From Magnetococcales bacterium HCHbin5 (GTDB taxonomy: Bacteria > Pseudomonadota > Magnetococcia > Magnetococcales > Magnetaquicoccaceae), in NCBI GenBank assembly GCA_002753505.1, contig PEAG01000011.1, positions 1 through 64,000 on the forward strand: 64,000 bases of DNA, written 5' to 3'. A model generated the notes under the pieces. It searched no databases. It was not told the DNA's origin and saw only the letters and a program-made list of their open reading frames with translations. The first letter of the stretch is position 1, and each line of letters starts with the position of its first letter. A program made the translations under genes and the position numbers. This document shows, one piece after another, positions 30,785-58,716 of the stretch.

Positions 30785-30825
30785 TGCACCCCACTGGGGA
30801 CCGTCACGGTCCCCAGTGGGGTGCA
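30785..30825. repeat. Perfect 41-bp palindrome in a repeat fragment
   Basis: TGCACCCCACTGGGGACCGT, a central C, then the exact complement. It belongs to a partial copy (about 30777-30877) of the composite repeat described next, running from TTAAAC to GCCCATTTT, and lies just behind the carbon-uptake operon, where it could terminate or protect the transcript. Confidence 0.9.
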
Positions 30826-30881
30826 GGGGCAAAGCCCCTGCATGCAAGGGTGCGTTTTCCCAAAAGCCCATTTTCAAACTA

Positions 30882-31351
30882 TTGCAGGGGTCTGGGGACC
30901 GTCACGGTCCCCAGTGGGGTGCAGGGGCAAAGCCCCTGCATGCAAGGGCGCGCTTTCCCAAAAGCCCATTTGCGCAGCAAATGGGCGCAGCGCGCCCAAA
31001 ACGCCCCGCAGGGGCACTGCTGGAGGGCGGCAGCCCGACTGAGAGCGGGCAAAAGGTTACTTGGCTTGGAAAAAAACCGATCCTGGCCTTGTGTCAAACA
31101 AGAAGCGTAATACAATAAAGCGTAGTACAATAAAGCGTAATATCCGAACGTTCTGCTTTCTTATCCAAACATTTTCCGTAACATAACCGTGCGAGTCGGG
31201 CTGCCGCCCTCCCAAGGTCGCCCCTGCGGGGCGGTTTTGTGCGCGTTGCGCCCATTTTCTGCGAAAATGGGCTTGGGGAAAACGCGCCGTTCAGCAGGGG
31301 CTTTGCCCCTGCACCCCACTGGGGACCGTGACGGTCCCCAGGCCCCTGCAA
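30882..31351. repeat. Composite hairpin repeat, copy 1
   Basis: A 470-bp element bounded by TTGCAGGGG and its inverse CCCCTGCAA, next to TTTAAC-like flanks. Two arms of about 170 bp are inverted repeats of each other, around a centre of about 140 bp. Each arm is a chain of hairpins: GGGGACCGTCACGGTCCCC; GCAGGGGC-AAA-GCCCCTGC; GCCCATTTGC-GCA-GCAAATGGGC set inside a GGGCGCGC/GCGCGCCC outer stem; GCCCC-GCA-GGGGC; and GGGC-GGCA-GCCC. The centre has two direct copies of ACAATAAAGCGTA. No convincing gene is inside; open frames across it are by-products of the GC-rich repeats. With the preceding fragment it fills the whole 663-base gap. Confidence 0.93.
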
Positions 31352-45167: not shown

Positions 45168-45609
45168 TTGCAGGGGTCCGGGGACCGTCACGGTCCCCGG
45201 TGGGGTGCAGGGGCAAAGCCCCTGCATGTAACGGGCGCGCTTTCTCGTAAGCCCATTTGCGCAGCAAATGGGCGCAGCGCGCCCAAAACGCCCCGCAGGG
45301 GCACTCCTGGAGGGCGGCAGCCCGACCGAGAGCTGGCCAAATTGGGTGTGGCTTGGAGAAAAAACACTCCTGGCCTTGTGTCAGATAAAAAACGGAATAT
45401 CCGAACCTTCTGCTTTCTTATCCAGGCATTGTCCATAACATAACCGTGCGCGTCGGGCTGCCGCCCTCCCAAGGTCGCCCCTGCGGGGCGGTTTTGTGCG
45501 CGTTGCGCAAATTTTCTGCGAAAATTTGCTTTGGGAAAACGCGCAGTTCATGCAGGGGCTTTGCCCCTGCACCCCACCGGGGAGCGTGACGCTCCCCGGA
45601 CCCCTGCAA
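45168..45609. repeat. Composite hairpin repeat, copy 2
   Basis: A 442-bp copy in the same orientation as copy 1. The left arm has the GCCCATTTGC/GCAAATGGGC hairpin and outer GGGCGCGC stem; the right arm has GCAAATTTTC/GAAAATTTGC and outer TGCGCG/CGCGCA. The outermost right hairpin is GGGGAGCGTGACGCTCCCC instead of GGGGACCGT...: both halves changed together. The centre has no direct repeats. It occupies the whole gap between murD2 and the radical SAM gene. Confidence 0.93.
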
Positions 45610-53498: not shown

Positions 53499-54403
53499 GC
53501 TGGTTCCTGATTGGTGCTGTCCGGCTCCAGGCCGTTCACAGCTGCTCCATCCTGTTCTGCAGCCCTGTTTTTTTGCGCCAGTGCCATTTTGTAGAGGGTG
53601 GAGCGGGAGAGGCCGGTTTTTTGGGCCATCTCCCGGGTGGTGGCGCGCATCCCTTTGCCCTCGGCCAACATCTGTTCCAGCAGGCCATCCGGGCAGGCGG
53701 CCGGGATTGTGGTGGGATCGCCGCCTTCGAGTACCAGCACAATTTCGCCCCTGGGGGGGTGGTTTTGAAACCATGTTGCCAATTCACTGACGCTGCCCCG
53801 GTGCCAGCTCTCGAACAGTTTGGTCAACTCTCTGGCCACCAGGGCTGGCCGCTGGCCGCTGCCGGTCTGTTGCAATGCCAGCAGGGTGGCCACCAGCCGC
53901 AGCGGGGATTCAAACAGGACCACTGTGCGGGTTTCGGCGGCGATTTCGGCCAACCGCGTGGCCCGCAGCCGCCCTTTTCGCGGCAAAAATCCCTCAAAGA
54001 CAAAGCGGTCCAGGGCAAAACCGGAACCCGACAGTGCGGTGACGACGGCCGATGCGCCGGGGAGAACCTCCAGGGGAATGCCTTGCCGGGCCACCGCCTG
54101 GACCAGGGGACGGCCCGGGTCGCTGATTCCCGGGGTGCCGGCGTCGGTGACCAGTGCCATGCGGGCCCCTGTACTCAACGCCTCCAGGATGCCGGGCAGG
54201 CGGTTGGCTGCATTGTGGTCGGTAAAGCTGGTCATGGGGGTGGTGATGTCGTAGTGGGCACACAGGATATGGGTGTGGCGGGTATCTTCTGCCAGAATCC
54301 GATCCACCGATTGCAAAATGCGGACAGCTCGAAATGTCATATCATCCAGGTTGCCGATCGGGGTCGGAACAATGTACAATCTGCCAACGGTCACTGTTTT
54401 CAC
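53495..54403 (-). CDS. rsmI: 16S rRNA C1402 2'-O-ribose methyltransferase RsmI
   Basis: About 302 residues with the SAM-tetrapyrrole methylase fold: LYIVPTPIGNLDDMTFRA, AEDTRHT, TDAGTPGISDPG, PRKGRLRATRL, and a winged tail. It 2'-O-methylates C1402 in the decoding centre. The start is uncertain: three in-frame GTG codons (54409, 54403, 54394) lie in front of the first homologous residues, and I choose the middle one. Only 21 bases separate it from the divergent LpoA-like gene. Confidence 0.93.
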   Translation of the reverse strand: MKTVTVGRLYIVPTPIGNLDDMTFRAVRILQSVDRILAEDTRHTHILCAHYDITTPMTSFTDHNAANRLPGILEALSTGARMALVTDAGTPGISDPGRPLVQAVARQGIPLEVLPGASAVVTALSGSGFALDRFVFEGFLPRKGRLRATRLAEIAAETRTVVLFESPLRLVATLLALQQTGSGQRPALVARELTKLFESWHRGSVSELATWFQNHPPRGEIVLVLEGGDPTTIPAACPDGLLEQMLAEGKGMRATTREMAQKTGLSRSTLYKMALAQKNRAAEQDGAAVNGLEPDSTNQEPA

Positions 54404-54424
54404 TTCCACTCGTATTGGAAAGAT

Positions 54425-56218
54425 ATGGCTCAATATGCCCCCACTGACGGGAAAGATACCCCTTTCTCGCCCCGAATGCCATCCTCCACCCTGCAACCGC
54501 GTGTTTTGTCGCCGCGGTTGGCTCTTTCCCTGCTCCTGGTGACGGGTCTGCTTTGGGGTTGTGCCGGGCAGAGGCCCATGCATCCTCCGGCCAAGGTGCG
54601 TTCGTCGGCTCCGGCCGACTCCGCAAAATCGTCGCCCCGTGTGATGACCATACCGGTGCCGGGCACTCCTGTTTCTCCCCCCTCCCAGGCCGGGGCGCAA
54701 CAGGGAGAGACGCCGGCCGATGCCGCTTTGCTGCGGGGCAAGCTTTTGTATGGCCAGGGTATGTTCCGGGAGGCTTGGCACGAGTGGAGCCCGGTGGCCC
54801 AGTTTGCCGACCCTTCCACAAAGGCCGTCCATGCGGAGACCGCCTGGCAATTTTTGTTTGAGTCCTATTTCAAGCAGGGGGATCGTGACAACACCCCCCA
54901 TTTTTTGCAGGAGATTGGCGGCATAGAGCCAACGGCGGGGCAGAGCGCGATTTTCAAGGCACTGCTCGAGCAGCAGACCCGGGAGCGGTTGCAGCAACTG
55001 CTTCAGTTGCAGCCGGCGGGTTCGGCTTTGGCTCCCATTTTTCTTGCGGCTCTCAATCCGACTGCGGCGGCGACCGGAGCGGGATTGGCTGCGACGGCAC
55101 CGGGGGTTCCGACCCTTGAGGGGGTACAACCGGCACCTCCCTCTGCTGCCTCTGCGGCTTGGCCGGCTGCTGCTGCGCCCACCGGTCCGCCGCTCAAGGT
55201 GGGGTTGTTGTTGCCGCTCAGTGGCAAGTGGACCGGCATGGGGGAGCATTTGCGGCGTGCTGCCAAGAAGGCGTTAGCCGATTATCCCTCCGTTCCGATT
55301 CAGTTGTTGATTGCGGATAGCGGTGATTCGGCGGCCACCAGTCTGGTTGCCATCAACGAGTTGGTGGCGCAGACGGTGGATGTGGTGATTGGTCCTGTGT
55401 TTTATGCGACGGTTCAGCCGGCTGTTGAGGTGGCGGCGGCGCATCATATTCCCATCATCACCTTCAACCCGCAGCGGGATACGGATACCCCTGTTCCCGG
55501 AGCCTATTCCAATGCCTTTCAGCCGGAGCAGGAGTCCAAGATCATGGCCCGCTATGCGGTGTTGGAAAAACGCTACCACCGGATTGCCATTCTGGCACCA
55601 GAGTCCGAATATGGGCGGGGTGTTGCAAAGACCTTTAGTGATGCGGTTCAGGCTGCGGGTGGCACCATCGTCCGGGTGACCCATTTTCCCCCGGATACCA
55701 CCGACTTTTCCTCCTGGTTGAAGGCGTTGGGCACCCAGTTTGACGCCCTGTTCATACCGGCTGCCGCCAAGCAGGTGCGGTTGATCGCGCCCCAGGCGGC
55801 CTTTTTCCGGGTTGGTAGTTCCGATGTGGCTCTGTTGGGCACCTCGCTTTGGAACAGTCCCGAGCTTTTGACGGAGGGGACGGACTATTTGAATGGTGCC
55901 ATGTTTTGCGACATTGACCCGGCGGTCAAGGAGCAGTTTCGGCAATCGTTTCGTCAGGCGTGGGAGGAGGATCCCACCACCTTGGCCACGTTGGCCTATG
56001 ACGGGGTGGCGGTCATTGCCCAGTTGATGCAGTTGCAGCAGCAGGGGGGGGGCAATTGGCGTGATGCTTTGACGCGGACGGCTGGTTTCCAGGGGGCCAG
56101 TGGTCCAGTGCGGTTTTTGGAGAAGGGTCAAAGTCGGCGCATGTACCATCTTTTCCAGGTTGGTAACGGCAAAATTCAGATTGCGCAGCCGGTTCAGGAT
56201 GCGCTCAATATCCCGTGA
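54425..56218 (+). CDS. LpoA-like penicillin-binding-protein activator
   Basis: A 597-residue protein with a lipoprotein-type signal (hydrophobic LALSLLLVTGLLWGC), a helical TPR-like N-terminal part (about 90-180), a Pro/Ala-rich linker, and a periplasmic-binding-protein fold (KVGLLLPLSGKWTGMGE to about 590). This architecture is that of LpoA/YraM, which activates PBP1a in E. coli. Divergent rsmI and nearby yraN and BON genes confirm the context. The in-frame region upstream is open for 1.2 kb but is antisense to rsmI and yraN; ATG 54425 with GGAAAG close ahead is the start. Confidence 0.88.
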   Translation: MAQYAPTDGKDTPFSPRMPSSTLQPRVLSPRLALSLLLVTGLLWGCAGQRPMHPPAKVRSSAPADSAKSSPRVMTIPVPGTPVSPPSQAGAQQGETPADAALLRGKLLYGQGMFREAWHEWSPVAQFADPSTKAVHAETAWQFLFESYFKQGDRDNTPHFLQEIGGIEPTAGQSAIFKALLEQQTRERLQQLLQLQPAGSALAPIFLAALNPTAAATGAGLAATAPGVPTLEGVQPAPPSAASAAWPAAAAPTGPPLKVGLLLPLSGKWTGMGEHLRRAAKKALADYPSVPIQLLIADSGDSAATSLVAINELVAQTVDVVIGPVFYATVQPAVEVAAAHHIPIITFNPQRDTDTPVPGAYSNAFQPEQESKIMARYAVLEKRYHRIAILAPESEYGRGVAKTFSDAVQAAGGTIVRVTHFPPDTTDFSSWLKALGTQFDALFIPAAAKQVRLIAPQAAFFRVGSSDVALLGTSLWNSPELLTEGTDYLNGAMFCDIDPAVKEQFRQSFRQAWEEDPTTLATLAYDGVAVIAQLMQLQQQGGGNWRDALTRTAGFQGASGPVRFLEKGQSRRMYHLFQVGNGKIQIAQPVQDALNIP

Positions 56219-56249: not shown

Positions 56250-56278
56250 TTGCAGTGGATTACGGTTTGTGCTATGGT
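56250..56278 (+). promoter_or_regulatory. Sigma-70 promoter for the Mms6-like gene
   Basis: TTGCAG, 17 bases, then TATGGT, ending 78 bases before the start codon. A near-palindrome (CGTTATATC/AATATAGCG, 56231-56248) sits just upstream of the -35 and could bind a regulator. AAGGAGAG follows as the ribosome site. Confidence 0.65.
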
Positions 56279-56356
56279 CGGGGCTGTCTCCCTGGTTGGG
56301 CGGGTGGGCCTTTTGGTTTCAAGGGTTTGAATGTGTTTGTTAAGGAGAGTTAGGAC

Positions 56357-56758
56357 ATGGCGATTACCCAGAGCTTTGCGGTTGAGTTGCTGGCTGGCGA
56401 GACGTTGAAGGTTGCCGGGCCGGGTTTGGTTGAGTTCAGTGCCCCTGAGATTGTTCCGGCGAAGATGGGTGCGGTCATGGGTGCCAAGGGCGGAGCGGCC
56501 GGGGCTGCGGCGACCCAGATGCAGGTTGGGGCTGGTACCGGTCAGGCTGTCATCAGCACGGCGACGGATCCCAATATGCTGGTGACGGCGACGGGTTCCA
56601 AGGCGGCGGCCGGGACCATTTGGAATGGCAAGGGGTTGAGCCTGGGGTTGGGGCTGGGGTTGGGGGCCTGGGGTCCGGTTTTGCTGGCGACAGCCATTAC
56701 TGTCGGTGGTTATGTCTATTGGAAGAAAAAGCAGTCTGCCAAGGTTTGGCCCTTTTGA
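56357..56758 (+). CDS. Mms6/MamD-like magnetosome membrane protein
   Basis: A 133-residue Gly/Ala-rich protein. Residues 86-107 carry GTIWNGKGLSLGLGLGLGAW then GP, nearly the same as the Leu-Gly-repeat segment of Mms6, with a membrane helix (about 95-122). The first 85 residues are low-complexity Gly/Ala/Thr/Val, as in MamD/Mms7. Known Mms6 ends in an acidic, iron-binding tail; here the tail after the helix is basic and short (WKKKQSAKVWPF), so it cannot bind iron in the same way. A role in the magnetite crystal membrane is inference. It has its own promoter and stands alone, with repeat elements behind it. Confidence 0.8.
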   Translation: MAITQSFAVELLAGETLKVAGPGLVEFSAPEIVPAKMGAVMGAKGGAAGAAATQMQVGAGTGQAVISTATDPNMLVTATGSKAAAGTIWNGKGLSLGLGLGLGAWGPVLLATAITVGGYVYWKKKQSAKVWPF

Positions 56759-56798: not shown

Positions 56799-56957
56799 TT
56801 GCAGGGCTTCGGGGACCGTCACGGTCCCCTGCATGAACTGCGCGTTTTCTCAAAGCACATTTTCGCAGAAAATGTGCGCAACGCGCACAGAACCGCCCCG
56901 CAGGGGCGACCTTGGGAGGGCGGCAGCCCGACTCGCACGGTTATGTCACGGAAAAAC
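56799..56957. repeat. Partial copy of the composite repeat, type B arm
   Basis: A 159-base arm (TTGCAGGG ... ACTCGCACGGTTATGTCACGG). It lacks the GTGCAGGGGC/GCCCCTGC hairpin that full copies have between the first palindrome and the GCATGAACT segment, so it is an internal deletion product, and it ends without centre or right arm. It is nearly identical over the rest to the left arm of copy 3. Confidence 0.88.
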
Positions 56958-56982
56958 ATGATTGCGGTCTTCCTGTAAACGA

Positions 56983-57448
56983 TTGCAGGGGTCCGGGGAC
57001 CGTCACGGTCCCCGGCGGGGTGCAGGGGCGGAGCCCCTGCATGAACTGCGCGTTTTCTCAAAGCACATTTTCGCAGAAAATGTGCGCAACGCGCACAGAA
57101 CCGCCCCGCAGGGGCGACCTTGGGAGGGCGGCAGCCCGACTCGCACGGTTATGTCACGGAAAATGTTTGGATAAGAAAGCAGAACGTCCGGATATTACGC
57201 TTTATTTGCGCTTTATTTACGCTTTTTGTTTGATATAAGGCCAGGATCGGTTTTTTTCCCAAGCCAAGTTGACCTTTTGCCCGCTCTCAGTCGGGCTGCC
57301 GCCCTCCAGCAGTGCCCCTGCGGGGCGTTTTGGGCGCGCTGCGCCCATTTGCTGCGCAAATGGGCTTCTGTGAAAGCGCGCCCGTTACATGCAGGGGCTT
57401 TGCCCCTGCACCCCACCGGGGACCGTGACGGTCCCCGGACCCCTGCAA
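56983..57448. repeat. Composite hairpin repeat, copy 3 (inverted)
   Basis: A 466-bp copy turned round relative to copies 1 and 2. The left arm has GCACATTTTC/GAAAATGTGC and outer TGCGCG stem; the right arm has GCCCATTTGC/GCAAATGGGC and outer GGGCGCGC. The centre carries two TTTATTTxCGCT-type direct repeats. Between the Mms6-like gene and the actin-like gene there is nothing else. Confidence 0.93.
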
Positions 57449-57494
57449 TCGTTTAACGGCACAGAGCGGGGCGTGCGGGCGTTGAGTTTTTGGG

Positions 57495-58601
57495 TTATGA
57501 CTTCAACGACTTGATCAAACAACCCTGGGCCACACAGCTCAAAGGATCACTGGCATAACGCACCGTCGAAAGAGCCAACGGCCACTCCTCCTGCTGTACC
57601 TGCTCACGCACCAGATCCAAAAATCCACCCGCCAACGAGGTGCCACCCGAGATGATCATCGGAATACTGTCCGGGAACCCCAAATCCAGATCACGACGAT
57701 CCAACTCCTTGACCGCACTCTTCACCACAAAATGGATCAGATTGGTGTAATAATAACCCAACGCCTCCCGAACCTTGCGCTCCTTTTTCCGGCCACTGTC
57801 AAACCGGTTGATGTCAAAATCCTTCTCCTTGATGGCAACAACCCGATTGGGAATGGTCCCAACCGCCATCGCCACATTGTCATCAATCCAATCCCCACCA
57901 CGATTCAAGGCAAACTCCAACACCGGAATCGATTTGTAAACCACCGCCACATTGGTCAACCCCGCACCAAATGACATGCTGATACCACTGAAATCCGTAT
58001 CCGCACACTCGGCATAAATGATGGCCACCGCCTCATTGAGCGGCTCCGGCGTATAACCGATCTCACTGATAATCCGACCAATGATGTTCTGATGATACAG
58101 CACATTGGAACGGGTGTTGATGGGATCAGCCGGAACAGAATAGACACACTTGCCCGGCCGCCCACCGGTCGCCTCCCCCCCGATCAGCTCCCGAATCATG
58201 GTGGCCAACACATCCGCAGAGTTGATGTCCTCCGGACTGATCATCCCCTTCTGCATGGAACGATTGATCCGATAGCCAAAAATGTTGGCAAAATTGTAGG
58301 CATCATTGGAAAGAATAAAGATGCTGTCATCAATCCGGGCATGACTGATCTTGGACAGATCCATCTCTCCCAAATCGGTCTTGTCCACCGTGAGAAAAAC
58401 ATTTCTCAACGTGGTGATATCCACCTTGCTGGCCTGATTGAGAGAAGCACACACCAGATTCATGGTGCCCACATCCAACCCCACATTCACCCTCTGCCCC
58501 TTCTCCGCTGCCACCGCCTCCGTTGCCACAGCGGGTGCAACACTCCTGAGGGGAGCGACGACAGCCTCTTCGTCATCCTCATCATCAAACGGTTCACTCA
58601 T
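57495..58601 (-). CDS. Actin-like ATPase of uncharacterised family
   Basis: A 368-residue actin/Hsp70-fold protein, distantly related to MreB/MamK but not a member. Phosphate-1 motif GLDVGTMNLV (41-50); phosphate-2 motif SFGAGLTN (210-217), where the usual Asp is Ser; adenosine motif ISGGTSLAGG (317-326). There is an acidic N-terminal tail (EPFDDEDDEEA) and a GGDWID block seen in other uncharacterised actin-like proteins. It may polymerise; filament formation is inference. It begins with GGAG eight bases ahead of ATG. A small membrane protein and two FimV-like genes follow in the same direction upstream. Confidence 0.78.
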   Translation of the reverse strand: MSEPFDDEDDEEAVVAPLRSVAPAVATEAVAAEKGQRVNVGLDVGTMNLVCASLNQASKVDITTLRNVFLTVDKTDLGEMDLSKISHARIDDSIFILSNDAYNFANIFGYRINRSMQKGMISPEDINSADVLATMIRELIGGEATGGRPGKCVYSVPADPINTRSNVLYHQNIIGRIISEIGYTPEPLNEAVAIIYAECADTDFSGISMSFGAGLTNVAVVYKSIPVLEFALNRGGDWIDDNVAMAVGTIPNRVVAIKEKDFDINRFDSGRKKERKVREALGYYYTNLIHFVVKSAVKELDRRDLDLGFPDSIPMIISGGTSLAGGFLDLVREQVQQEEWPLALSTVRYASDPLSCVAQGCLIKSLKS

Positions 58602-58716
58602 CACACACTCTCCAAACGGTCATGGACCACTGGCTCGCCAGCAATCCGGTTAAGCCATCAGGGCAACTCGGACCACATCCACGACGAACATGAAACCCCA
58701 GTCACCCATTCGTCAC

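Follow-up and report, generated by a model that had tools for sequence, protein, structure and literature searches.

The window analyzed here comprises 64,000 nucleotides of Magnetococcales bacterium HCHbin5. At positions 56357..56758 (+) it contains a gene for a basic-tailed Leu-Gly membrane protein of 133 amino acids, which we assign to a “WPF” subfamily of the Mms6/MamD family. The reading frame starts with ATG, 9 nt downstream of the ribosome binding site AAGGAG (56342..56347, +) seen in the sequence, of which AAGG is conserved 5' of the orthologues. Four parts of the protein, all encoded on the same strand, can be distinguished: an N-terminal GPG module (residues 11–27, LLAGETLKVAGPGLVEF; 56387..56437), a variable Ala/Gly-rich linker (residues 28–85; 56438..56611) with 44% Ala plus Gly across residues 29–85, a core of GTIWNGKG, Leu-Gly repeat and hydrophobic helix (residues 86–121; 56612..56719) with the hydropathy peaking at residues 98–116, and a basic aromatic tail WKKKQSAKVWPF (residues 122–133; 56720..56755). 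The C-terminal sequence reads ...GTIWNGKGLSLGLGLGLGAWGPVLLATAITVGGYVYWKKKQSAKVWPF*, and the tail KKKQSAKVWPF contains no acidic residue. An AlphaFold model built from four sequences had a mean pLDDT of 31, too low for use, and a PDB search for a relative of the subfamily gave only weak, composition-type matches (E at least 0.02).

Four consecutive [LIM]G units occur in one of the 382 window reading frames of at least 60 amino acids, namely in this one. Pairwise comparison of the four orthologues of the genus yielded dN/dS values of 0.06–0.13 at dS values of 0.7–1.7, and the window gene is under purifying selection. Together with its conservation in four species of the genus this indicates that 56357–56758 is not a chance reading frame. 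It is confirmed as a real gene whose product has the Leu-Gly helix of Mms6/MamD and is rich in Lys at its end.

The gene follows an LpoA/LppC-like lipoprotein gene (54380..56218, +) after a gap of 138 nt; this conserved 5' neighbour in the genus is regarded as context, not as mechanism. An earlier note on this DNA had credited the gene with its own promoter, which is borne out by a −35-like hexamer TTGCAG (56250..56255, +; TTTGCA[AG] conserved in four species) and, after a 17-nt spacer, a −10-like hexamer TATGGT preceded by TGTGC (56273..56278, +; TGTG[CT]TA[CT] conserved in four species). These predicted motifs keep a fixed spacing in four species of the genus while most of the remaining intergenic region has diverged. 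An automatic consensus scan (9 of 12 matches) did not report TTGCAG–17 nt–TATGGT. The motif was also sought 5' of eight other host genes, mostly magnetosome genes, and not found, so that a promoter common to other magnetosome-type genes of the genome was rejected for the genes examined.

The host genome (Magnetococcales, 4.19 Mb, 200 contigs, 99% complete) was searched by profile. The main mam cluster, which the earlier note had advised looking for elsewhere in the assembly, is present on contig C153, apart from the window contig (mamH, E, K, M, O, A, Q, B, D). MamD (281 bits), MamB (397), MamM (403), MamK (522) and MamH (595) score over their cut-offs there; MamA, MamO, MamQ and MamE are best named by their own models yet stay below the cut-offs. 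Contig C186 carries a further mamK and a MamB-like gene, and it also encodes a 216-residue Mms6-like protein with an acidic tail (...LKNRTGSSELEEATS). The genome thus holds mamA, B, E, K, M, O and others, as expected of a magnetotactic host, and the absence of mamA, mamB and mamK that would have spoken against a magnetosome assignment does not apply. On the window contig itself the Mms6 and MamB profiles match nothing else, in agreement with the earlier reading that no other magnetosome gene is recognizable there. Dispersed GACCGTCACGGTCCC repeats are common to the window, C153 and C186, which argues against contamination. The GC-rich repeat blocks with these palindromes lie at 56812–57180, 57280–57460, 30797–31330 and 45181–45480 of the window, and many copies occur on C153 and C186. 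We further observed a second MamB over the cut-off (374 bits) at G000:C1:26882–27733 with no other magnetosome genes recognized nearby; apparently isolated MamB copies of this kind are also found in G001 and G005. Two ParA-like ATPases that share 50% identity adjoin a Leu-Gly gene in the host cluster on C153 (L073:7163–8044) and the isolated basic-tailed gene of G028:C35 (L044:10922–11803).

To the NCBIfam models the window protein is a relative of Mms6/MamD type, as had been supposed from the sequence: MamD is matched with E=6e-15, Mms6 with 6e-12 and MamG with 2e-6, while a Pfam scan gave no match. These matches are confined to the linker and the Leu-Gly/helix part. Against the equivalog cut-offs the protein reaches 46 of 200 bits for Mms6 (NF040917), 55 of 100 bits for MamD/Mms7 (NF040916), where only profile positions 209–301 are aligned, and 28 of 100 bits for MamG (NF040985). 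It is consequently not Mms6 proper, the acidic magnetite-interacting C-terminal tail being absent as well, nor MamD proper, whose N-terminal repeats it does not have, nor MamG proper. It does possess the features of the broad Mms6/MamD Leu-Gly superfamily, i.e. GTIW.G.G ahead of a Leu-Gly repeat that leads into a hydrophobic helix close to the C-terminus, and those by which we define the WPF subfamily in the present analysis: a GPG module, a Leu-Gly core and a basic tail ending W[PS][FL]. The window gene is regarded as an unnamed variant within the known Mms6/MamD kind, accessory, of magnetosome type and under selection.

To delimit this subfamily 60 relatives were searched first, and then 48 Magnetococcales genomes with a profile of 21 sequences; 23 of the 48 genomes carry a member. 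The N-terminal motif L..GE.....GPG.[VL].F is invariant or nearly so, as is the Leu-Gly core with its hydrophobic helix, and L11, E15, G21, P22, G23 and F27 are invariant across the 21 sequences. All 26 distinct members have a tail with a net charge of +3 to +5 that ends W-[PS]-[FL], usually W-P-F and in a few cases W-P-L or W-S-F. Among the other Leu-Gly proteins (101 compared, including the 26 WPF members) the tail charge ranges from −18 to +3, and those reaching +3, mostly from family f13, consist of short MKRKA-like ends. The earlier note had rightly seen a basic, Lys-rich end instead of an acidic C-terminus. Its description as a short replacement does not hold, since the basic W-P-F ending is conserved across the subfamily and is no truncation. 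Longer members of approximately 256–270 amino acids (G033, G037, G041) show the same core and tail behind a different N-terminus, indicating that the tail travels with the core. The nearest relatives outside the genus are 46–57% identical over nearly the whole length, including the tail. In approximately 350 genomes of the phylum outside Magnetococcales only one weak match (G122) was found, restricted to the Leu-Gly part. The subfamily profile matches at least twice in each carrier genome and at most once in 23 of the 25 non-carriers; the gene thus accompanies an enlarged set of Leu-Gly proteins, which is an association and not a test as the genomes are phylogenetically non-independent. Ca. 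Magnetaquicoccaceae, which are reported to lack mms6 (PMC6783814), offer a parallel to the non-carrier genomes. Our literature search returned no searchable paper naming or describing the subfamily; the IT-1 paper lists hypothetical genes, an “HP similar to Mms6” and MamD-like genes in the MC-1 and IT-1 clusters, with locus numbers that we could not match to sequences (PMC3934378).

Of the 23 carrier genomes, 18 have a copy whose contig also bears other magnetosome-family genes, which is not the case in the genus of the window. It lies directly 3' of mamB in five genomes of family f8 (G024, G033, G037, G041, G043), beside mmsF in four of f13 (G039, G045, G046, G047), and beside mamH in the mms6–mmsF region of G027 and G038; the contigs of the other f13 copies carry MamD-type genes. 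A further observation concerns Leu-Gly proteins of approximately 250 amino acids with a bare MKRKA-type basic tail (L050:8547–9314 and f13 equivalents), with an mmsF-like gene lying between their genes and the W-P-F gene. In the genus of the window the gene is found outside the cluster, 3' of the lpoA-like gene, in G000, G001, G002 and G005. G003 and G004 possess the lpoA-like gene without a WPF gene, and their sole Leu-Gly gene is MamD-like. The gene described as lone and divergent is therefore isolated in this genus, but belongs to a conserved Magnetococcales subfamily that mostly resides among magnetosome genes.

The cytoskeleton-like surroundings remarked on before are real in so far as the actin-like gene at 57495–58604 (−) is a volactin homologue (Pfam Volactin, PF25216, 1e-72) with two FimV/HubP-like genes near it, all three on the strand opposite to the window gene. 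Volactin of this type is a bacterial homologue of an archaeal actin. Given this adjacency one might suppose that the window gene works with the actin-like and FimV-like genes as a cytoskeletal module, an idea to which the distribution of volactin leaves practically no credence: it occurs in 15 of the 48 Magnetococcales genomes, of which only G000 and G001 carry a WPF gene, and in no WPF carrier outside the genus; in G001 both genes lie on one contig approximately 22 kb apart, and a search of G002 and G005 gave no volactin match. The cytoskeletal neighbourhood is probably accidental.

The product of the window gene is, in our view, likely to be an accessory protein of the magnetosome membrane, from a basic-tailed Mms6/MamD subfamily specific to Magnetococcales; its tail would take the place of the acidic mineral-binding part, and the protein would complement Mms6 and MamD. 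The proposal builds on the observed family core, the conserved tail, the location of relatives among magnetosome genes, purifying selection and promoter conservation; localization, topology and the partner of the tail are what we infer from these. The Leu-Gly helix would insert the protein into the magnetosome membrane, as for Mms6, and the GPG module with the flexible Ala/Gly linker could form a soluble part at the position of the conditional-sorting domain of Mms6. In AMB-1 the Leu-Gly region is required for membrane localization of Mms6 and the N-terminal domain for conditional sorting; the topology of Mms6 is in dispute (PMC11332177). The short Lys/Arg tail ending W-P-F may interact with something negatively charged. 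In a lumenal orientation this would most likely be the mineral surface or the acidic Mms6/MamD tails, in a cytosolic one phospholipid headgroups. In selected scaffolds, lysine and histidine were reported to be key residues for the interaction with magnetite (Rawlings 2015, reviewed in PMC7604359), and bare iron oxide takes up cationic peptides by electrostatic adsorption (PMC8146918). The tail would therefore most likely bind mineral, acidic partner tails or membrane phosphates. A basic-tailed protein might then complement the acidic Mms6/MamD and not replace them, and in the genus of the window the gene could use its own promoter at the lpoA-like locus and act in trans. With respect to sorting, MamF-like proteins sort MamD and Mms5, both with Gly-rich C-terminal helices, but Mms6 and MamG of M. 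gryphiswaldense are independent of MamF-like proteins despite similar helices (PMC11628618), which counts against the proposed role. The same applies to the position of the gene outside the cluster in this genus, to the promoter motif not being common to the other genes examined and to the dispute over Mms6 topology.

Other explanations have to be weighed against this one. One is that the protein is a true orthologue of Mms6 and uses its C-terminus in the same manner to bind iron and shape crystals; the shared GTIW..GKG-LGLGLGLG-helix and the Mms6 profile match at 6e-12 speak for it. We judge this very unlikely given the gap between 46 bits and the cut-off of 200, the tail free of acidic residues and the separate acidic-tailed Mms6-like protein encoded on C186 of the same genome. 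Moreover, replacement of the acidic residues of Mms6 by Lys in AMB-1 abolished its function in shape control (PMC5069546), so that a natural basic-tailed protein should not do the job of Mms6. Of the earlier suggestion of a crystal-shaping or membrane protein, the probable accessory magnetosome-membrane protein is thus what remains, and Mms6-style shaping appears doubtful.

The relocated gene may instead have been recruited to a cell-envelope role outside the magnetosome together with its LpoA-like neighbour. The synteny in all four carrier species of the genus, the shared strand with the gap of 138 nt and the far-away cluster fit such a recruitment, but it seems unlikely to us in view of the conserved own promoter, a core, N-module and tail unchanged relative to the cluster-encoded copies, and the lack of the gene at the same locus where the sole Leu-Gly gene is MamD-like. 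A more serious variant, a sub-model that overlaps with the accessory role and is not exclusive of it, takes the basic tail as a mere topology anchor according to the positive-inside rule, with the tail in the cytosol and the GPG module in the lumen, acting on mineral or other proteins. A Lys/Arg cluster directly after the sole hydrophobic helix in all members and the concentration of the most invariant non-core residues in the GPG module make this quite possible, although we would not put it at even chances: acidic Mms6-type tails likewise start with K/R after the helix, leaving the orientation undecided by this cluster, and the conserved terminal W-P-F suggests more than an anchor.

The GPG module is also present in small proteins of magnetosome clusters with other membrane helices. 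One class combines it with an N-P-W helix and an F-S-F-F tail, and another of approximately 104 amino acids is encoded directly before mamD in f13. Pfam gave no significant match for ten such proteins, and no relationship of the module to the MamD repeats could be detected (hhalign probability 0.7%, with column-shuffled controls scoring higher). The host has a second isolated GPG gene behind asd (G000:C145:20724–21068; L074:9925–10266; MPKVEVVKMLMAGEKATIAGPGLVKF...AKKKYPKLVW), which has an N-P-W helix in place of the Leu-Gly repeat and a similar copy in G001:C1. Proteins of approximately 97–120 amino acids with the module and a C-terminal membrane helix were observed in magnetosome clusters, in f13 immediately ahead of mamD (L046:11884–12198, L051:3130–3492, L056:6447–6740, L059:12036–12368), and Pfam/NCBIfam scans of two of them found no match. 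It is tempting, if rather speculative, to see in the module the mark of a new Magnetococcales magnetosome protein family. Its classes would be proteins with a W-P-F tail and a Leu-Gly core, proteins with an F-S-F-F tail and an N-P-W helix, those of approximately 104 residues encoded beside mamD, and those with a non-basic tail. On this view the module would serve all of them in sorting or mineral contact, and the basic-tailed proteins would be the electrostatic counterpart of Mms6, so that acidic and basic surface proteins would act in pairs to determine crystal shape.

Crystal control is currently modelled on the acidic tails of Mms6 and MamD, and the tail of the WPF subfamily is oppositely charged with a constant aromatic ending. 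Its presence in nearly half of the examined Magnetococcales genomes, apparently including cultivated M. marinus MC-1, provides a natural contrast to the acidic tails, which bears on the partner of the tail, its membrane face and its pairing with Mms6. Magnetosome gene sets read from the cluster alone can miss such members.

Among known systems Mms6 resembles the window protein in its small size, Ala/Gly-rich N-part, GTIW.GKG–Leu-Gly repeat and hydrophobic helix near the C-terminus. It differs in the acidic tail, which is basic and ends W-P-F here, in lacking the N-terminal GPG module, and in its location in the magnetosome cluster. MamD/Mms7 is the best profile match and shares the C-terminal core, but the window protein has 133 residues versus 318 profile positions, a basic tail and no MamD N-terminal repeats. 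MamG, likewise a short Leu-Gly protein, matches the core in part and is set apart by the low score of 28/100 bits. Examples from the same subfamily are two unnamed cluster proteins, G027 C1:2903569–2903976 with 136 amino acids, from what is presumably Magnetococcus marinus MC-1, and G034 C4:52648–53028. Both have the GPG module, linker, Leu-Gly-type core (the repeat being partly worn in the G027 protein) and basic tail ending W-[PS]-F; they are, however, encoded among magnetosome genes and 26–40% identical to the window protein. With regard to position, the mam-like islet of Magnetospirillum magneticum AMB-1 is a precedent, since a mamD-like gene lies there apart from the main magnetosome island, but the islet comprises seven mam-like genes and transposases (PMC2818848), whereas in the window a single gene is held by selection beside a housekeeping locus.
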